DNA of 64,000 bases from Whitmania pigra (lineage: Eukaryota; Annelida; Clitellata; Hirudinida; Haemopidae): positions 86,001 through 150,000 of the forward strand of contig JAJTWR010000389.1 in the NCBI GenBank assembly GCA_021613335.1. Reading direction: 5' to 3'. Numbering within the stretch: the first letter of the stretch is position 1; every line of letters starts with the position of its first letter. Of the stretch, positions 30,662-63,440 are shown piece by piece. The translations under genes were made by a program, and so were the position numbers. Under the pieces are notes generated by a model. It was given only the letters and a program-made list of their open reading frames with translations. It was not told the origin of the DNA and did not search any database.

Positions 30662-32324
30662 AATATTCCTCTCCGTATTCGCAGAACTGAAAATAGTAAA
30701 CAAAGCCGTTTCCCCTGACAACTACAACAATAACAACAAAACAACGACAGCAGCAACAACTCGATTTTTGTCAGCACACTGTTATTTTCATAATGATTGT
30801 CTTTCGGAGGTGGTTATCTCGATTCGAAACGGAAAGAAAAGAAATTCAAGAGTTGATGAGATGTAAGCAAGATGCCAGCTTCGCTTTTATATCCAGCCTT
30901 CCAGGTAATTGCAAAGCTGGAAAACTTTTGCTGCTGCGAGATGATAAACGGACGGAGAGAGGAATGAAAGAGAGAAGGAGAAGAAAATCAAGAGGGATGG
31001 GTAATGAGCCTTATTATAGTCTGTAATTGGTTCCCATTGGCTCCTATTAATTAGTTTAACTTGTTCTCATACATAATCATCATCAATTTCTTCAGGTAAA
31101 CATGAAAACATGTTTTCACAAATTAAAAAAAAATAAAAATAAACAAGTGAGCACAGAAACGAATGAAAATCACGGAGAACCATACGTCGGTTTAGTGGAA
31201 GATGCTCAGAGGATGAAACTCATCCTGCTAATTAGAAACATGTGCTCGTTTTTTAGGCCAGGAGTGTTTCATCAATCCGATGATGCTGCATGGAAAGATC
31301 ATCACTCGACACTTATTTTCCTTTCCAAATCACATCATCGGTGCAAACAACCGAAGCTCTCTCCAGCCAATTCCACAACCACTGAAAGCTGAGAGTCGGG
31401 TCTGCGGGGAATCCATCTTAACAAGGATAATTGCTGGCAAACTATACCGTTACTTTTCATTAGGCAATTGTTGGGCCTCAATTAGCCTTGAGAATGTAAT
31501 TAGGTTATTATGTTGTTTATGAGCTCGGGAAATTTTTTTTTAATATTTATTTTCCCTGCGCACCAGTAAAAGGGGTTTTTTCTTGTGACAAAGATTTTCA
31601 ATTTTCATTTTTAAATTTTAGATGGAGCAGCTGGTTTTAGTTTTAGCGAAAATACAAAAATGGCGCCCATAAATTGAGCCAACCACAAACTTTCACAGGT
31701 TATAAATTTAGCAGAATGTGTTTAATTAAATTTTATAAAATAAATACTCTCACGTGAATTACTAATCGCCAAATTAGTTTACAGAAATACCGTCAATTAA
31801 GGAGTGGAATTGTATCTTAATTTTTAAGGAGTGAAATTGCATCGTTATTTTTTTTTCATCGTGAACTTTCATCTTTGAACTTTGAAATGAGTAGCAGGAG
31901 ATAGCGAGAAACGATAAAATTCCCTGAACTTTATGACCTGTTGCCAGGAGTGCTTGAACTACGCACCCATCATTCATTCACAGGTTCGCTCCTCTCATTA
32001 ATCCATTCACGCTCACTCAAATTCATCCACTCATTCACCCATTCATCCGCACTTCAATCATTCATTGACTCAATCATTCACTTTCCTAAAGACATATCCA
32101 AAGATCCTTTCGTTTACTCAGTCCATACATAGCTCCGTATTAGAAAATTAAATGTTAGATTTTAAGAATGTGATTTTAGTTTATATAATAACATGGGAGG
32201 TTAACATGAATCAAGCAAATCTTGGTTATCAATTAATTAATATTAGCTATTATTTTCAATCAATTAATAACTAGAGCAATAGTGAAGTTTGTTCAGAAAG
32301 CTTTATTTTTATTTATTATTTATT
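30662..32324. other. Intergenic, protocadherin promoter side to U1 array
   Basis: The protocadherin 5' UTR and promoter should lie in about 30662-31050 (minus). A CATTCA-rich stretch lies at about 31965-32090. No gene or RNA recognised. Confidence 0.5.
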
Positions 32325-32391
32325 TACAAAAGTAACACCTCAGTTATGATTCGTCAAGGTCTACATATGTGGTGTAAAACAGGGCAATAGC

Positions 32392-32553
32392 ATACTTACT
32401 TGGTGCAGGGGACTCGTGATCAGGAAGGCGTTTCCCCCAGGGGGAGGCTAGCCCATTGCAGTGAGGGTTGGATGAACCATGCGATTACCCCAATAGGGGT
32501 AAATCGGGCGCGTAATATTTTAGTGTTGGGATTTGCGTTCGCGCATTTCCCTA
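32392..32553 (+). ncRNA. RNU1: U1 snRNA, copy 1
   Basis: U1 RNA of the spliceosome, which pairs with 5' splice sites. Seen here: 5' end ATACTTACTTGG (canonical is ATACTTACCTGG, so C9 is U); stem-loop I with GATCAGGAAG, matching the U1-70K loop GAUCANGAAG; stem-loop II with ATTGCAGTG, where U1A usually needs AUUGCAC; stem-loop III TTACCCCAATAGGGGTAA; Sm-type site ATATTTTAG; stem-loop IV TTTGCGTTCGCGCA. Its upstream element reads CTACATAT, unlike the TATA-bearing type A copies. The divergent flank suggests this is the oldest or edge copy. Confidence 0.93.
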
Positions 32554-32776
32554 GTAATAACAAAAGATAATTAAACCCCAAAATAATATATGATTTCCCA
32601 CAGTTTTTTTTGGTCAAAGAATTTTCTTCAAACTTTATTATTTCGTAAGCTTTAGTTTTATTTGTTTATAGTCTGTGTGTGTATTTTGTTAACATGCATC
32701 AAATTCATTTACAAAAACAACACCCCAATTTTGATTCGTCAAGGTCTATAAATGTGGTGTAAAACAGGGCAATAGC

Positions 32777-32938
32777 ATACTTACTTGGTGCAGGGGACTC
32801 GTGATCAGGAAGGCGTTTCCCCCAGGGGGAGGCTAGCCCATTGCACTGAGGGTTGGATGAACCATGCGATTACCCCAAGAGGGGTAAATCGGGCGCGTAA
32901 TATTTTAGTGTTGGGATTTGCGTTCGCGCATTTCCCTA
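32777..32938 (+). ncRNA. RNU1: U1 snRNA, copy 2 (type A)
   Basis: Same fold as copy 1 with ATTGCACTG in stem-loop II (intact U1A core), Sm-type site ATATTTTAG, and CTATAAAT about 30 bp upstream. 5' end has U at position 9. Confidence 0.95.
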
Positions 32939-33161
32939 GTAATAACAAAAGATAATTAAACCCCAAAATAATATATGATTTCCCACAGTTTTTTTTGGTC
33001 AAAGAATTTACCTCAAACTTAGTTATTTCGTAAGCTTTAGTTTTATTTGTTTATAGTCTGTGTGTGTATTTTGTTAACATGCATCAAATTCATTTACAAA
33101 AACAACACCCCAATTTTGATTCGTCAAGGTCTATAAATGTGGTGTAAAACAGGGCAATAGC

Positions 33162-33323
33162 ATACTTACTTGGTGCAGGGGACTCGTGATCAGGAAGGCG
33201 TTTCCCCCAGGGGGAGGCTAACCCATTGCACTGAGGGTTGGATGAACCCTGCGATTACCCCAAGAGGGGTAAATCGGGCGCGTAATATTTGAGTGTTGGG
33301 TTTTGCGTTCGCGCATTTCCCTA
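33162..33323 (+). ncRNA. RNU1: U1 snRNA, copy 3 (type A)
   Basis: First copy with Sm-type site ATATTTGAG and stem-loop IV GGGTTTTGCGTTCG. Stem-loop II ATTGCACTG. 5' end has U at position 9. Confidence 0.95.
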
Positions 33324-33546
33324 GTAATAACAAAAGATAATTAAACACCAAAATAATATATGATTTCCCACAGTTTTTTTTGGTCAAAAAATTTTCTTCA
33401 AACTTAATTATTTCGTAAGCTTTAGTTTTATTTATTTATAGTCTGTGTATGTATTTTGTTAACATACGTTGAATTCATTTACAAAAACAACACCCCAATT
33501 TTGATTCGTCAAGGTCTATAAATGTGGTGTAAAACAGGGCAATAGC

Positions 33547-33708
33547 ATACTTACTTGGTGCAGGGGACTCGTGATCAGGAAGGCGTTTCCCCCAGGGGGA
33601 GGCTAGCCCATTGCAGTGAGGGTTGGATGAACCCTGCGATTGCCCCAAGAGGGGTAAATCGGGCGCGTAATATTTTAGTGTTGGGATTTGCGTTCGCGCA
33701 TTTCCCTA
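33547..33708 (+). ncRNA. RNU1: U1 snRNA, copy 4 (type A)
   Basis: Like copy 2 in the Sm site (ATATTTTAG), but shares the ATTGCAGTG change in stem-loop II with copy 1, and has GATTGCCCC in place of GATTACCCC in the stem-loop III arm. 5' end has U at position 9. Confidence 0.93.
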
Positions 33709-33931
33709 GTAATAACAAAAGATAATTAAACCCCAAAATAATATATGATTTCCCACAGTTTTTTTTGGTCAAAGAATTTTCTTCAAACTTAGTTATTTCG
33801 TAAGCTTTAGTTTTATTTATTTATAGTCTGTGTATGTATTTTATTAACATACGTTGAATTCATTTACAAAAACAACACCCCAATTTTGATTCGTCAAGGT
33901 CTATAAATGTGGTGTAAAACAGGGCAATAGC

Positions 33932-34092
33932 ATACTTACTTGGTGCAGGGGACTCGTGATCAGGAAGGCGTTTCCCCCAGGGGGAGGCTAGCCCATTGCA
34001 CTGAGGGTTGGATGAACCCTGCGATTACCCCAAGAGGGGTAAATCGGGCGCGTAATATTTGAGTGTTGGGATTGCGTTCGCGCATTTCCCTA
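33932..34092 (+). ncRNA. RNU1: U1 snRNA, copy 5 (type A, 1-nt deletion)
   Basis: Stem-loop IV reads GGGATTGCG, one T shorter than copy 2, unbalancing the internal loop. This deletion also makes the step to the next copy 384 rather than 385 bp. Otherwise intact, Sm ATATTTGAG. Confidence 0.92.
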
Positions 34093-34315
34093 GTAATAAC
34101 AAAAGATAATTAAACCCCAAAATAATATATGATTTCCCACAGTTTTTTTTGGTCAAAAAATTTTCTTCAAACTTAGTTATTTCGTAAGCTTTAGTTTTAT
34201 TTGTTTATAGTCTGTGTGTGTATTTTGTTAACATGCATCAAATTCATTTACAAAAACAACACCCCAATTTTGATTCGTCAAGGACTATAAATGTGGTGTA
34301 AAACAGGGCAATAAC

Positions 34316-34477
34316 ATACTTACTTGGTGCAGGGGACTCGTGATCAGGAAGGCGTTTCCCCCAGGGGGAGGCTAACCCATTGCACTGAGGGTTGGATGAA
34401 CCCTGCGATTACCCCAAGAGGGGTAAATCGGGCGCGTAATATTTGAGTGTTGGGTTTTGCGTTCGCGCATTTCCCTG
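34316..34477 (+). ncRNA. RNU1: U1 snRNA, copy 6 (type A)
   Basis: Intact; from here on the gene ends CCCTGG instead of CCCTAG. Upstream element AGGACTATAAAT. 5' end has U at position 9. Confidence 0.95.
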
Positions 34478-34700
34478 GTAATAACAAAAGATAATTAAAC
34501 ACCAAAATAATATATGATTTCCCACAGTTTTTTTTGGTCAAAGAATTTTCTTCAAACTTAATTATTTCGTAAGCTTTAGTTTTATTTATTTGTAGTCTGT
34601 GTATGTATTTTATTAACATACGTTGAATTCATTTACAAAAACAACACCCCAGTTTTGATTTGTCAAGGACTATAAATGTGGTGTAAAACAGGGCAATAAC

Positions 34701-34862
34701 ATACTTACTTGGTGCAGGGGACTCGTGATCAGGAAGGCGTTTCCCCCAGGGGGAGGCTAACCCATTGCACTGAGGATTGGATGAACCCTGCGATTACCCC
34801 AAGAGGGGTAAATCGGGCGCGTAATATTTGAGTGTTGGGTTTTGCGTTCGCGCATTTCCCTG
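34701..34862 (+). ncRNA. RNU1: U1 snRNA, copy 7 (type A)
   Basis: Intact, with GAGGATTGG in stem-loop II where most copies have GAGGGTTGG. 5' end has U at position 9. Confidence 0.95.
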
Positions 34863-35085
34863 GTAATAACAAAAGATAATTAAACACCAAAATAATATAT
34901 GATTTCCCACAGTTTTTTTTGGTCAAAAAATTTTCTTCAAACTTAATTATTTCGTAAGCTTTAGTTTTATTTATTTGTAGTCTGTGTATGTATTTTGTTA
35001 ACATACGTTGAATTCATTTACAAAAACAACACCCCAATTTTGATTCGTCAAGGACTATAAATGTGGTGTAAAACAGGGCAATAAC

Positions 35086-35247
35086 ATACTTACTTGGTGC
35101 AGGGGACTCGTGATCAGGAAGGCGTTTCCCCCAGGGGGAGGCTAACCCATTGCACTGAGGATTGGATGAACCCTGCGATTACCCCAAGAGGGGTAAATCG
35201 GGCGCGTAATATTTGAGTGTTGGGTTTTGCGTTCGCGCATTTCCCTG
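35086..35247 (+). ncRNA. RNU1: U1 snRNA, copy 8 (type A)
   Basis: Shares the GAGGATTGG change with copy 7, showing the two are sister copies. 5' end has U at position 9. Confidence 0.95.
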
Positions 35248-35470
35248 GTAATAACAAAAGATAATTAAACACCAAAATAATATATGATTTCCCACAGTTT
35301 TTTTTGGTCAAAGAATTTTCTTCAAACTTAATTATTTCGTAAGATTTAGTTTTATTTGTTTATAGTCTGTGTATGTATTTTGTTAACATACATCAAATTC
35401 ATTTACAAAAACAACACCCCAGTTTTGATTTGTCAAGGACTATAAATGTGGTGTAAAACAGGGCAATAGC

Positions 35471-35632
35471 ATACTTACTTGGTGCAGGGGACTCGTGATC
35501 AGGAAGGCGTTTCCCCCAGGGGGAGGCTAACCCATTGCACTGAGGGTTGGATGAACCCTGCGATTACCCCAAGAGGGGTAAATCGAGCGCGTAATATTTG
35601 AGTGTTGGGTTTTGCGTTCGCGCATTTCCCTG
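35471..35632 (+). ncRNA. RNU1: U1 snRNA, copy 9 (type A)
   Basis: Intact apart from AATCGAGCGC for AATCGGGCGC after stem-loop III. 5' end has U at position 9. Confidence 0.95.
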
Positions 35633-35855
35633 GTAATAACAAAAGATAATTAAACACCAAAATAATATATGATTTCCCACAGTTTTTTTTGGTCAAAGAA
35701 TTTTCTTCAAACTTAATTATTTTGTAAGCTTTAGTTTTATTTATTTGTAGTCTGTGTATGTATTTTATTAACATACGTTGAATTCATTTACAAAAACAAC
35801 ACCCCAATTTTGATTCGTCAAGGTCTATAAATGTGGTGTAAAACAGGGCAATAGC

Positions 35856-36017
35856 ATACTTACTTGGTGCAGGGGACTCGTGATCAGGAAGGCGTTTCCC
35901 CCAGGGGGAGGCTAACCCATTGCACTGAGGGTTGGATGAACCCTGCGATTACCCCAAGAGGGGTAAATCGGGCGCGTAATATTTGAGTGTTGGGTTTTGC
36001 GTTCGCGCATTTCCCTG
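35856..36017 (+). ncRNA. RNU1: U1 snRNA, copy 10 (type A)
   Basis: Intact; the last copy before the retroposon. 5' end has U at position 9. Confidence 0.95.
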
Positions 36018-36164
36018 GTAATAACAAAAGATAATTAAACACCAAAATAATATATGATTTCCCACAGTTTTTTTTGGTCAAAGAATTTTCTTCAAACTTA
36101 ATTATTTTGTAAGCTTTAGTTTTATTTATTTGTAGTCTGTGTATGTATTTTATTAACATACGTT

Positions 36165-36242
36165 GAATTCATTTACAAAAACAACACCCCAATTTTGATT
36201 CGTCAAGGTCTATAAATGTGGTGTAAAACAGGGCAATAACAT
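36165..36242 (+). promoter_or_regulatory. Orphan U1 promoter left of the retroposon
   Basis: Complete copy of the upstream region (GATTCGTCAAGGTCTATAAA and GGGCAATAACAT) that should drive copy 11, now followed by inserted DNA instead of a U1 gene. Confidence 0.75.
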
Positions 36243-36490
36243 AAAAAACTTCTGGTAGTTCAAGCCATGTTGCGGGCTTGTCATCAATTTCTAGTTTTTC
36301 TAGGTTCTCCAGCGGAGGACGTTGATGTAAAGCTATTTTTGTAAACTAGGGGTGCCTGGACTTGTCCTGACTACTCCGGCGCGTTGACCCGGTATTGCAG
36401 TACAACCGGGAACGGCTTTGAAACTGAGCAGGTAGTCCTGCTCCGTCCTAATCATCTAGTTATGCAATGGACGTTAATTAAAACACACAC
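36243..36490 (+). mobile_element. Retroposon inserted at the 5' end of U1 copy 11
   Basis: 248 bp absent from every other unit, flanked by a perfect 15-bp direct repeat ACAGGGCAATAACAT (36228-36242 and 36491-36505), the target-site duplication. It ends in GCAATGGACGTTAATTAAAA followed by a short CA repeat. The 3' end matches the tail of the SINE at 6882-6985 (ATCATCTAGTTATGCAATGG against ATCACCTGGCTATGCAACGG). It has no pol III boxes that I can see, so I read it as a 5'-truncated LINE 3' end whose tail the SINE shares; a longer SINE is the alternative. Confidence 0.85.
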
Positions 36491-36503
36491 ACAGGGCAAT
36501 AAC

Positions 36504-36665
36504 ATACTTACTTGGTGCAGGGGACTCGTGATCAGGAAGGCGTTTCCCCCAGGGGGAGGCTAACCCATTGCACTGAGGGTTGGATGAACCCTGCAATTAC
36601 CCCAAGAGGGGTAAATCGGGCGCGTAATATTTGAGTGTTGGGTTTTGCGTTCGCGCATTTCCCTG
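36504..36665 (+). ncRNA. RNU1: U1 snRNA, copy 11 (type A, promoter displaced)
   Basis: The RNA-coding part is complete, but only the 15 bp of target duplication remain of its own promoter, the rest lying 263 bp further upstream. CTGCAATTACC replaces CTGCGATTACC at the stem-loop II/III junction. Probably silent. Confidence 0.9.
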
Positions 36666-36888
36666 GTAATAACAAAAGATAATTAAACACCAAAATAATA
36701 TATGATTTCCCACAGTTTTTTTTGGTCAAAGAATTTTCTTCAAACTTAATTATTTCGTAAGATTTAGTTTTATTTATTTATAGTCTGTGTATGTATTTTG
36801 TTAACATGCATCAAATTCATTTACAAAAACAACACCCCAATTTTGATTCGTCAAGGTCTATAAATGTGGTGTAAAACAGGGCAATAGC

Positions 36889-37050
36889 ATACTTACTTGG
36901 TGCAGGGGACTCGTGATCAGGAAGGCGTTTCCCCCAGGGGGAGGCTAACCCATTGCACTGAGGGTTGGATGAACCCTGCGATTACCCCAAGAGGGGTAAA
37001 TCGGGCGCGTAATATTTGAGTGTTGGGTTTTGCGTTCGCGCATTTCCCTG
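36889..37050 (+). ncRNA. RNU1: U1 snRNA, copy 12 (type A)
   Basis: Intact; first member of the A/B higher-order repeat. Sm ATATTTGAG, upstream CTATAAAT. Confidence 0.95.
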
Positions 37051-37273
37051 GTAATAACAAAAGATAATTAAACACCAAAATAATATATGATTTCCCACAG
37101 TTTTTTTTGGTCAAAGAATTTTCTTCAAACTTAATTATTTCGTAAGCTTTAGTTTTATTTATTTGTTGTCTGTGTATGTATTTTATTAACATACATTGAA
37201 TTCATTTACAAAAACAACACCCCAGTTTTGATTCGTCAAGGTCTACAAATGTGGTGTAAAACAGGGCAATAGC

Positions 37274-37436
37274 ATACTTACTTGGTGCAGGGGACTCGTG
37301 ATCAGGAAGGCGTCTCCCCCAGGGGGAGGCTAGCCCATTGCACTGAGGGTTAGATGAACCCTGCGATTACCCCAAGGAGGGGTAAATCGGGCGCGTAATT
37401 TTTTCGTATGGGGATCTGCGTTCGCGCATTTCCCTG
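37274..37436 (+). ncRNA. RNU1: U1 snRNA, copy 13 (type B)
   Basis: Type B: GCGTCTCCCCC in stem-loop I, GGTTAGATG in stem-loop II, CCCCAAGGAGGGG in stem-loop III, Sm-type site AATTTTTTCG, stem-loop IV GGGGATCTGCG. The upstream element is CTACAAAT, with no TATA. 5' end still has U at position 9. Confidence 0.95.
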
Positions 37437-37659
37437 GTAATAACAAAAGATAATTAAACACCAAAATAATATATGATTTCCCACAGTTTTTTTTGGTCAA
37501 AGAATTTTCTTCAAACTTTATTATTTCGTAAGCTATAGTTTTATTTATTTGTAGTCTGTGTATGTATTTTATTAACATACGTTGAATTCATTTACAAAAA
37601 CAACACCCCAATTTTGATTCGTCAAGGTCTATAAATGTGGTGTAAAACAGGGCAATAAC

Positions 37660-37821
37660 ATACTTACTTGGTGCAGGGGACTCGTGATCAGGAAGGCGTT
37701 TCCCCCAGGGGGAGGCTAACCCATTGCACTGAGGGTTGGATGAACCCTGCGATTACCCCAAGAGGGGTAAATCGGGCGCGTAATATTTGAGTGTTGGGTT
37801 TTGCGTTCGCGCATTTCCCTG
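37660..37821 (+). ncRNA. RNU1: U1 snRNA, copy 14 (type A)
   Basis: Second A gene of the 771-bp higher-order repeat; RNA region as in copy 12. Confidence 0.95.
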
Positions 37822-38044
37822 GTAATAACAAAAGATAATTAAACACCAAAATAATATATGATTTCCTACAGTTTTTTTTGGTCAAAGAATTTTCTTCAAA
37901 CTTAATTATTTCGTAAGCTTTAGTTTTATTTATTTGTTGTCTGTGTATGTATTTTATTAACATACATTGAATTCATTTACAAAAACAACACCCCAGTTTT
38001 GATTCGTCAAGGTCTACAAATGTGGTGTAAAACAGGGCAATAGC

Positions 38045-38207
38045 ATACTTACTTGGTGCAGGGGACTCGTGATCAGGAAGGCGTCTCCCCCAGGGGGAGG
38101 CTAGCCCATTGCACTGAGGGTTAGATGAACCCTGCGATTACCCCAAGGAGGGGTAAATCGGGCGCGTAATTTTTTCGTATGGGGATCTGCGTTCGCGCAT
38201 TTCCCTG
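38045..38207 (+). ncRNA. RNU1: U1 snRNA, copy 15 (type B)
   Basis: Second B gene; all type B marks and CTACAAAT upstream, matching copy 13. Confidence 0.95.
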
Positions 38208-38430
38208 GTAATAACAAAAGATAATTAAACACCAAAATAATATATGATTTCCCACAGTTTTTTTTGGTCAAAGAATTTTCTTCAAACTTAATTATTTCGT
38301 AAGCTTTAGTTTTATTTATTTGTAGTCTGTGTATGTATTTTATTAACATACGTTGAATTCATTTACAAAAACAACACCCCAGTTTTGATTTGTCAAGGAC
38401 TATAAATGTGGTGTAAAACAGGGCAATAAC

Positions 38431-38592
38431 ATACTTACTTGGTGCAGGGGACTCGTGATCAGGAAGGCGTTTCCCCCAGGGGGAGGCTAACCCATTGCAC
38501 TGAGGGTTGGATGAACCCTGCGATTACCCCAAGAGGGGTAAATCGGGCGCGTAATATTTGAGTGTTGGGTTTTGCGTTCGCGCATTTCCCTG
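38431..38592 (+). ncRNA. RNU1: U1 snRNA, copy 16 (type A)
   Basis: Third A gene of the higher-order repeat, upstream element AGGACTATAAAT. Confidence 0.95.
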
Positions 38593-38815
38593 GTAATAAC
38601 AAAAGATAATTAAACACCAAAATAATATATGATTTCCCACAGTTTTTTTTGGTCAAAGAATTTTCTTCAAACTTAATTATTTCGTAAGCTTTAGTTTTAT
38701 TTATTTGTTGTCTGTGTATGTATTTTATTAACATACATTGAATTCATTTACAAAAACAACACCCCAGTTTTGATTCGTCAAGGTCTACAAATGTGGTGTA
38801 AAACAGGGCAATAGC

Positions 38816-38978
38816 ATACTTACTTGGTGCAGGGGACTCGTGATCAGGAAGGCGTCTCCCCCAGGGGGAGGCTAGCCCATTGCACTGAGGGTTAGATGAA
38901 CCCTGCGATTACCCCAAGGAGGGGTAAATCGGGCGCGTAATTTTTTCGTATGGGGATCTGCGTTCGCGCATCTCCCTG
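38816..38978 (+). ncRNA. RNU1: U1 snRNA, copy 17 (type B, array end)
   Basis: Third B gene, with CATCTCCC for CATTTCCC in stem-loop IV. Repeat similarity ends right after CCCTGGT, so the conserved 3'-box-like GTAATAACAAAAGATAA is missing and 3'-end formation may fail. Confidence 0.93.
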
Positions 38979-38980
38979 GT

Positions 38981-44076: not shown

Positions 44077-46305
44077 ATGTCATCAACAACCACTAACACC
44101 AAGGGGATTAATTCATCTATGGAACTTGCCAACCTGGAGATGCAGGCAAAAGAACACGCCAAAATGATCGTGGCCAATCACTTTCAGAGACCAGATCAAC
44201 TCGAGAAAACCGAACAATTACGTAAAGCCGTTGCACGCCAAAAGGGTTCCGTAGAAGCGATGTTAAAAACTGCCATTCAGTCTCAGCTCGATGGAGTCAA
44301 AACGGGCTTGAATCAACTCAGTTCCGCGTTGAAAGACGTTAGAGAAATTGAAAACGATATGAAAGACATCAAGGTCACTTATAATTCCATAATTGGATTG
44401 GGCATTAAACTGAAGAATATCAGAGAGGAGAATTCTCGTCACAGCCAGTTATCTGCTGCCTGTGACAATGTGCTTCACATCTTCACTGTTCCTGAAACCA
44501 TCAACAAATGCAAGGAGCTCATAAACGAAGGAAAGTTGCTGCAAGCCCATAAAAACATAAGCGACTTGGAAAGGTCCCGTGACGATATTCTCTACGAGCT
44601 GCATAAGCAGTCACAAAATGCTTCCGAAAGGCACTTGGTGGAACAGTATTTTTCGGGACTTAACGATCTAGTAGAGGCGCTAGCCAAACAGCTTTGGCTT
44701 ATTCTCCAAAGGACTATCATCTCTGTCCGTGTCGAGCCGACAATCATAGTCACTGTTATCAGAATCATCGAGAGGGAAGAAAAAATGGATGAACTGATGG
44801 GGAAGCGATACGACCAGATGCAGCTCAAAGGAAGACAGAAGCAATGGAGGAAAAAAGCTTTTGAGACCATGAACAAAACCATTCTCTCGAGAATAGAAGG
44901 CAACCAGATGGAGGACAGGAGCACGAACAAAATGTGGTTGGTGCGACACTTGGAAGTCACTCGTCAGATTGTCCTAGAGGACCTGAGGGTAGTTAAGACA
45001 TTGTTTGAGTTGTGCTTCCCCCCACATTACAACATTGTTGAGAGATACATCGAGATGTATCACAATGCAATCAAGGCCCATCTAGATGACATTGTTGAAC
45101 AGGGCCTAGAAGGAAATGAGATCATATCTCTCCTCAACTGGGTCAGCGATTACCCCACAAAGGAACTTATGGGTAACCCTGACTTGAACATAGACCTCAG
45201 CAAATACGAACCCCTGCTGAATGAGGAGAATATTTCCCAGTTGCAGGAGCAATATGTTGTTAAGTTGAGGGATAACATCAAAGATTGGATGAGGAAATCT
45301 CTCAAGTCTGATGTCGAGGACTGGATGAAAGATCGCAGACCCATCATGGACGACAAAGAATTCTTCAGTACGGCCCTCCCATTTCCGGTTATTGAGATGG
45401 TTGGACAGAACATCATTGTGGCAAAAACGATCGGGCTAGAACTGAAGGTAGTTTTCATGTGCTTGGAAGAAATCAAAGAGTTCATTCAGTCGTACAAGGC
45501 AGAGTTGAAATCATTCCGCGACATCCATTTGGCTGATCGACAGAATCCCCCTTATTACCTCGATTTTATCATTGGAAATGCCAACAACTGCCAGACTTTT
45601 ATTGATTTTGTTAACCAATTGTGTAGAATTCACATGCCCGAATCAGATCCCTCGAGAATCAAACCTCTCCTTGATTCCCTCAGAACCCTGACAGAACTTC
45701 TCTGCACTTGTCTTATTGAGGAGGTATTTTCGGACTTGGATCCCCACATTCAAGACTTTTTCACTAGAAAATGGATGGTTGACAAGACTCTTATTGACAG
45801 TATCTGCATGACAATAAGTGACTATTTTCAGGATTTTGTCCATGCCAAGAGTCTCTTCTATAATGAATTATTCAAACAGATCAGACTAAGAATTGCCAAA
45901 GAGTTCTGTAAGGCCATCCTAGCCAGAAAACTTCTTCTTAAGAACTTTGATGAAAGATTGGCTGCTGCTGAAAAAGTTGTGAAAGAAGTGAACCAGTTGA
46001 ATGCTTTGTTCAGCAAGTTAAAGAAAGAAGATTCCACTAAAGAACGAGAAGATGACTTTGACGACGTGTCTCCTCTAGATAGCATTCTAGACATGGTAGA
46101 ACTTCTCAAGATGAAAGACAAGTCTCTGATTATGCTCGAACTTTCCGGCTTCGTCAAGAAGTACCCCGACGTCAAAGCCGACAACCTCGTCAACCTCCTT
46201 AGCCTGAGGAGCGACCTGGATAGGAACGAGGTTCGGGACAACATCGAGCAGTGCCTCGGTGAAGTCAGCAAGATCAAGCGCAAAACTATATTTTCTCTGA
46301 TCTGA
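44077..46305 (+). CDS. EXOC3: Exocyst complex component 3 (SEC6), single exon, 742 aa
   Basis: Core subunit of the exocyst, the octameric tether that holds secretory vesicles at the plasma membrane before SNARE fusion. Family-wide matches run from end to end: FQRPDQLEKTEQLRKAVARQ, AIQSQLDGVKTGLNQL, VLHIFTVPE, GKLLQAHKNISDLERSRD, LAKQLWLILQRT, VRIIEREEK, KMWLVRHLE, CFPPHYNI, NEIISLLNW, NNCQTFIDF, KYPDVKADN. Length equals the human protein (about 745 aa). The start is the ATG at 44077; the frame is open 24 codons further up but only through non-ATG codons, and an in-frame ATG at residue 15 (MELANLEMQ) is a possible alternative. No intron in 2.2 kb, although JADE, the ADF-H gene, EEF1AKMT2 and Iroquois nearby are rich in introns. 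No frameshift or stop, so the gene looks functional. N-terminal third is coiled-coil, as in other exocyst rods. Confidence 0.96.
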   Translation: MSSTTTNTKGINSSMELANLEMQAKEHAKMIVANHFQRPDQLEKTEQLRKAVARQKGSVEAMLKTAIQSQLDGVKTGLNQLSSALKDVREIENDMKDIKVTYNSIIGLGIKLKNIREENSRHSQLSAACDNVLHIFTVPETINKCKELINEGKLLQAHKNISDLERSRDDILYELHKQSQNASERHLVEQYFSGLNDLVEALAKQLWLILQRTIISVRVEPTIIVTVIRIIEREEKMDELMGKRYDQMQLKGRQKQWRKKAFETMNKTILSRIEGNQMEDRSTNKMWLVRHLEVTRQIVLEDLRVVKTLFELCFPPHYNIVERYIEMYHNAIKAHLDDIVEQGLEGNEIISLLNWVSDYPTKELMGNPDLNIDLSKYEPLLNEENISQLQEQYVVKLRDNIKDWMRKSLKSDVEDWMKDRRPIMDDKEFFSTALPFPVIEMVGQNIIVAKTIGLELKVVFMCLEEIKEFIQSYKAELKSFRDIHLADRQNPPYYLDFIIGNANNCQTFIDFVNQLCRIHMPESDPSRIKPLLDSLRTLTELLCTCLIEEVFSDLDPHIQDFFTRKWMVDKTLIDSICMTISDYFQDFVHAKSLFYNELFKQIRLRIAKEFCKAILARKLLLKNFDERLAAAEKVVKEVNQLNALFSKLKKEDSTKEREDDFDDVSPLDSILDMVELLKMKDKSLIMLELSGFVKKYPDVKADNLVNLLSLRSDLDRNEVRDNIEQCLGEVSKIKRKTIFSLI

Positions 46306-58867: not shown

Positions 58868-63440
<4,573 letters not shown>

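Follow-up and report, generated by a model that had tools for sequence, protein, structure and literature searches.

A tandem array of 17 U1 snRNA genes with U at position 9 in the leech Whitmania pigra: a candidate variant-U1 locus beside a canonical C9 set

In the leech Whitmania pigra, all 17 members of a tandem array of genes for U1 small nuclear RNA (snRNA) carry U instead of C at position 9 (U9 instead of C9) of the RNA 5′ end that reads the 5′ splice site, or donor. The array lies in a window of 64,000 nucleotides (NCBI GenBank assembly GCA_021613335.1, contig JAJTWR010000389.1, positions 86,001 to 150,000, forward strand); positions given below without a contig or locus name are those of this window. 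Position 9 faces the last exon base (−1) of the donor. There, U9 would form a Watson–Crick pair with A and only a wobble pair with the usual G, and a small nuclear ribonucleoprotein (snRNP) that contains U9 should thus prefer the less common donors in which −1 is A, or A(−1) donors. The array coexists with a larger set of C9 genes, so that a second reading specificity would have been added and the first not replaced. On balance, we consider it probable that the array is a dedicated variant-U1 locus, which would add A(−1) donor specificity beside the canonical C9 set.

The first-pass annotation, made from the letters of the window, had reported U9 in all 17 U1 genes, and this is borne out. The U9-containing 5′ end ATACTTACTTGG occurs 17 times from 32392 to 38827, always on the + strand, where chance would give 0.03 occurrences, and each of the 17 exact matches to ATACTTACYTGG (starts 32392 to 38816, + strand) has T at position 9. 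All copies match the Rfam model RF00003 over its full length (model positions 1–166) with 108.9 to 121.8 bits, the cut-off being 69.5 bits. The period is 385 bp, and matches between copies are 95–97% identical; an insert with a U2-like remnant separates copies 10 and 11. A plausible origin is one U9 paralogue that multiplied in tandem, with a unit of 385 bp, and whose copies were homogenised.

In the 178-Mb genome, at least 59 U1 genes lie above the Rfam cut-off: the 17 in the window, and 14 and 28 elsewhere. These come from an Rfam search of the genome, a 5′-end pattern search, and Rfam searches of individually extracted loci. The first genome search gives the best 42 of 2270 candidates, and three window copies above the cut-off are absent from these. 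The pattern search gave 65 matches, 58 of them among the 59 counted genes; one gene (C369:714923) is counted from the first Rfam search alone. Since the pattern held positions 3, 4, 7, 8 and 12 fixed, genes altered there could escape it, and 59 is a lower bound. Four candidates (C34:45347 and those on C188, C222 and C337) have U1-like starts with no U1 continuation and were rejected, while pattern matches on C35, C100 and C220 are dissimilar to U1 in appearance and were left uncounted. Also uncounted are truncated U1 relatives, namely three on C293, one on C330 and one C71 fragment (among the best 40 of 60 candidates); the four on C293 and C330 are of the C34 type, and three stop at RNA base 135.

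Position 9 is C in 39 of the 59 genes and U in 20. The 5′ ends comprise AAACTTACCTGG (31 genes), ATACTTACTTGG (19), ATACTAACCTGG (six) and one each of ATACTTACCTGG, AAACTTACCTTG and AAACTTACTTGG. The 12-mer ATACTTACTTGG has 35 matches genome-wide, 19 of them in counted U1 genes, compared with 27 for the reversed 12-mer. On contig C34, a second tandem array consists of 11 C9 copies; its last copy lies about 260 bases short of the contig end, one further C9 gene stands at the start of C218, and this array may be larger than is visible. When the array RNA served as query in a DNA search, the best 40 of 59 candidates included no additional array-type copy, and the next-best match among them is 84% identical. 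Two U9 genes outside the array, C332:434506 and C110:2114986, outscore it (148.6 and 137.8 bits), and their Sm sites resemble those of other leech U1s. U at position 2 accompanies U9 in 19 of the 20 U9 genes. The six genes with ATACTAACCTGG, at loci L009, L010, L013, L014 and L016, have A as base 6 (A6), which would pair with T at donor position +3.

The first-pass annotation had left it open whether C9 genes exist elsewhere, and had offered two readings: a dedicated variant, or a change in the specificity of the lineage's main U1. The latter would imply that donors had moved to A at −1 along with the RNA. One array does hold 17 of the 59 counted U1 genes; the retention of C9 in 39 of them, including the 11 tandem copies on C34, means that the main U1 has not been replaced, and the donors point the same way. 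These were sampled from 20 kinesin stretches, chosen from 107 exon matches and aligned to the motor domains of seven kinesins; the aligner requires GT or GC and AG and has no further motif preference. Of the 80 introns obtained, 58 form the 'good' set used below (at least two of the seven guide proteins agree, both flank scores are at least 12; 22 fall outside), and 33 form a strict set (at least five guides, flanks of at least 20; 47 fall outside). The −1 base is G in 41, A in 8, T in 7 and C in 2 of the 58, and G in 27, A in 3, T in 2 and C in 1 of the 33; over all 80 introns it is G in 51, A in 15, T in 12 and C in 2. Thus, G is still the commonest base, and in neither the good nor the strict kinesin introns has −1 moved towards A. 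These counts already contradict a switch of the main U1, which we regard as most improbable.

Other routes to donor sequences gave little. Joined exon translations of a Rab3GAP1-like gene matched one distant protein and no same-species transcript, and hence yielded no introns. The donor word ACAGGTAAGT has 244 genome matches against 547 for the reversed word; this control is void because the reversed word holds TGAATG, which we take to be a product of ATGAATGA-type repeats and which is far commoner in the genome than GTAAGT (429 against 96). Compared with a Markov expectation for 219 kb, of which 62 kb were masked, no donor word stood out strongly.

Pairing energies between U1 5′ ends and donors were calculated in a fixed register and take account of base pairing alone, not of proteins or modified bases. 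Averaged over the 58 donors, they amount to −5.78 kcal/mol for C9 U1 (with A at position 2), −4.64 for A6 and −4.25 for U9. At 8 of the 58 donors, the pairing of U9 is stronger than that of C9 U1 by over 0.5 kcal/mol, and these are exactly the eight A(−1) donors. A6 is better at nine, all with T at +3; one donor is common to both lists. In the strict set, U9 is better at three introns and A6 at five.

On a broader reading, the U1 repertoire would be split, with C9/U6, U9 and A6 forms reading classes of unusually degenerate donors with G(−1), A(−1) and T(+3), respectively. The +3 base is A in 28, T in 17, G in 7 and C in 6 of the 58 donors (15, 10, 5 and 3 in the strict set). T at +3 accounts for a few percent of human donors; set against this figure, the leech share of 17 in 58 appears unusually high for an animal. 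The gain of U9 at the eight A(−1) donors and of A6 at 9 of the 17 T(+3) donors speaks for a split repertoire. Against it, A6 brings no gain at the other eight T(+3) donors, among them all seven that read GTTTG. GTTAG would be the best partner of an A6 U1, and the T(+3) donors favour GTTTG (seven) and GTTGG (three) instead; in the strict set, none of 10 T(+3) donors has A at +4, compared with 11 of 20 donors with A or G at +3 (p 0.004, with no correction for multiple positions). The U9 and A6 forms are each scattered over several places of the U1 tree. Such a three-way division is, in our view, unlikely.

The tree covers all 59 genes and is based on the RNA body from base 12 onwards. The window array forms one clade (support 99/99); as one tandem family, its 17 copies are not 17 independent observations of U9. 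Of the other U9 genes, C332:434506 groups among C332 genes (96/96), C110:2114986 sits beside an A6 gene (100/97), and C71:2681354 is nested in the C34 clade (100/100). Four changes are needed at position 9 and four at position 6. Topologies that unite all U9 genes in one clade are rejected (p 1e-7; p 0.0017 if the C71 gene is omitted), as are a clade of the window array with C332:434506 alone (p 0.008) and a single A6 clade, the groups for these topology tests having been defined after the 5′ ends had been seen. Rejection of the one-clade trees shows that 5′ ends recurred or were transferred; it is no sign of selection. Changes in the first 11 columns are not significantly fewer than in the body (P 0.18 by total changes, 0.07 by the number of unchanged columns).

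Transfer could have occurred by gene conversion, which would have moved 5′ ends between U1 families and made most U9 ends copies of one old end on different bodies, instead of separate mutations. The association of U9 with U at position 2 favours this, as does the location of the C332 and C110 U9 genes among C9 and A6 genes. The C71 gene does not fit: it has A at position 2 and a body 97% identical to C34-type U1, and its U9 consequently needs a change of its own. Part of stem III is missing from this gene, and it could be a pseudogene itself. Gene conversion is a tentative explanation that we hold to be rather less than probable; it concerns only the origin of U9 and is compatible with a dedicated variant U1.

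Whether the array RNAs could function depends on more than the 5′ end, and the first-pass annotation had described the rest of each RNA as well kept. For the U1-70K loop and most stem pairs, this holds. The loop motif GAUCANGAAGG, which we take to be that bound by U1-70K, is intact and reads GATCAGGAAGG in all 17 copies; the U1A loop, presumably AUUGCAC, is kept in 15. The fold was tested on 40 distinct U1 rows from the 59 genes, including 8 of the 17 array copies. In these rows, 97.4% of cells are paired, and 16 pairs have changed on both sides compared with a mean of 7.4 in shuffled alignments; neither value was equalled in any of 500 shuffles, although the fold was predicted from the alignment used to test it, and related rows favour the result. 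Within the predicted model, the U1 fold is shown to be supported by compensatory change, and it is largely kept in the array. The promoter is recognisable as well: the ACACC core of an snRNA-type element lies exactly at −57 in 16 of the 17 copies, and ACACC or ATACC is found at −56 to −58 in 30 of the 31 other U1 genes scored (of 42, with C34-type genes counted once).

Several observations weigh against a fully functional locus. The consensus of the Sm site consists of a purine, A, a run of five to six U and a purine (PMC6312358). In 14 of the 17 copies, the site departs from this by an A within the U-run (11 AATATTTGAG, 3 AATATTTTAG); the unbroken run AATTTTTTCG is found only in copies 13, 15 and 17. 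Sm-site changes are reported to trigger snRNA decay (PMC7328512), and the odd sites make it doubtful that most copies are fully active. The claim of good preservation also fails at one stem II pair (columns 58–83), which is G–A in each of the eight array rows while the remaining 32 rows keep it paired, at the U1A loop of copies 1 and 4 (AUUGCAG), and in copy 11, which lies at the insert and has lost the promoter core. Promoter-element scores are low, ranging from 5.6 to 6.6 in 15 copies, with 15.0 for copy 1 and 3.3 for copy 11; other U1 genes score 5.9 to 31.3, and for random 100-base stretches the 95th percentile is 3.5 and the 99th is 7.7. Nucleotide diversity (π) over 14 copies (1, 11 and 17 were left out owing to differing flanks) is 0.028 in the RNA, 0.024 in the promoter element, 0.032 from promoter to start, 0.091 far upstream, 0.0095 over downstream bases 163–200 and 0.029 over 201–265. 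The RNA is about as variable as most near flanks, and so no purifying selection among copies is visible, apart from bases 1–11, where π is zero. Recurrence at position 9 is itself not unusual, as four changes or more are seen in 24% of body columns, and the mean donor pairing of U9 is weaker than that of C9 U1.

Many of these features would be expected if the array were a decaying or junk expansion produced by unequal exchange, with RNAs that are absent or destroyed by quality control and U9 as a chance passenger. The odd Sm sites, the altered U1A loops, the lost core of copy 11, the low promoter scores, the broken stem II pair, the diversity of the RNA and a recurrence at position 9 that does not exceed the body rate all agree with this, and of three human U1 variants tested, all with half-lives below 10 min, just one has an Sm-site change (PMC7328512). 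Decay does not readily account for the retention of most stem pairs, of the U1-70K loop throughout and of the promoter core in all copies except one, nor for the U-rich Sm sites of copies 13, 15 and 17 or the presence of U9 in two higher-scoring genes outside the array. We judge decay a substantial possibility that falls short of being probable.

A dedicated variant-U1 locus thus remains the preferred reading. Of what the first-pass annotation had proposed, the dedicated variant is consistent with the sequence and has a planarian parallel; full activity of most copies is what the Sm sites call into question. On this reading, array RNAs would be transcribed, assembled into snRNPs and used at A(−1) donors, and by analogy with planarian U1C their presence may be biased towards stem cells or the germline. 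If the RNAs are used, one animal would possess natural U1 forms distinguished by single reading bases, and the steering of donor choice by U1 isoforms would become directly testable. If the array is silent, it would clearly exemplify the concerted amplification of a weak snRNA gene.

Table 1. Members of the U1 array and associated elements, in window positions.
Feature	Position	Strand	Remarks
Tandem U1 array	32318..38980	+	385-bp unit, 17 copies, insert after copy 10
U1 copy 1	32392..32553	+	U9; Sm AATATTTTAG; U1A loop C70G
Promoter element core ACACC	32720..32724	+	snRNA-type, at −57; copy 2 as example
U1 copy 2	32777..32938	+	U9; Sm AATATTTTAG
U1 copy 3	33162..33323	+	U9; Sm AATATTTGAG
U1 copy 4	33547..33708	+	U9; Sm AATATTTTAG; U1A loop C70G
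U1 copy 5	33932..34092	+	U9; Sm AATATTTGAG
U1 copy 6	34316..34477	+	U9; Sm AATATTTGAG
U1 copy 7	34701..34862	+	U9; Sm AATATTTGAG
U1 copy 8	35086..35247	+	U9; Sm AATATTTGAG
U1 copy 9	35471..35632	+	U9; Sm AATATTTGAG; top Rfam score in array (121.8)
U1 copy 10	35856..36017	+	U9; Sm AATATTTGAG
U2-like remnant	36255..36425	+	within array; 34.0 bits, under Rfam cut-off of 46
U1 copy 11	36504..36665	+	U9; Sm AATATTTGAG; no promoter element
U1 copy 12	36889..37050	+	U9; Sm AATATTTGAG
U1 copy 13	37274..37436	+	U9; subfamily with U-rich Sm site AATTTTTTCG
U1 copy 14	37660..37821	+	U9; Sm AATATTTGAG
U1 copy 15	38045..38207	+	U9; Sm AATTTTTTCG
U1 copy 16	38431..38592	+	U9; Sm AATATTTGAG
U1 copy 17	38816..38978	+	U9; Sm AATTTTTTCG; last of array

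Text similar to the U2-like remnant (36255–36425) also follows a truncated U1 5′ end at locus L055 (C337:848969). The array is adjoined by a gene for exocyst Sec6 (44077–46302), the protein of which is 63% identical to that of Helobdella robusta, its best named match. This gene and a CPSF1-like gene (L061, 238–4323) are contained in single long open reading frames, and the kinesin genes are intron-rich; an intron-poor genome, as the two single frames would suggest, is disproved by the kinesin search with its 107 exon matches. A Homeobox_KN gene on the − strand (60379–60890) is split by an intron with the donor CAG/GTAACC (exon/intron) and a long ATA/AAT-type repeat inside. Among other splicing components, U6 is present in the genome with an ordinary ACAGAG box (two matches), and PF05971, which we take to be the METTL16 family, has four matches; nothing odd is therefore seen there.

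Variant U1 genes are known from other animals; among the open-access papers listed for leech U1 snRNA and for U1 variants in annelids and flatworms, no title or abstract opening describes an array of this kind. In human, multicopy vU1 paralogues with altered bases likewise exist beside canonical U1; vU1.3 and vU1.4 carry a C-to-T change at a different base from that in the leech, which could permit the reading of AT donors, while vU1.8 has an almost intact reading domain (PMC13172311). Drosophila resembles the leech in having several U1 paralogues per genome, which vary at only three positions (PMC4291461). The closest parallel is the planarian Schmidtea mediterranea, where U1C1 and U1C2 carry a C-to-U change opposite donor −1 and other U1 variants occur in the same genome (PMC6312358). 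The leech shows the same division, with U opposite −1 in 20 of 59 genes and C kept in 39. Expression of the planarian U1C RNAs is established, with enrichment in neoblasts, whereas the leech array is known here from its genes; the leech also differs in its 17-unit tandem array and in the odd Sm sites of most copies. A C9-to-U change in planarian stem-cell U1 and on several branches of leech U1 points tentatively to a route that U1 diversification has taken repeatedly in spiralians.

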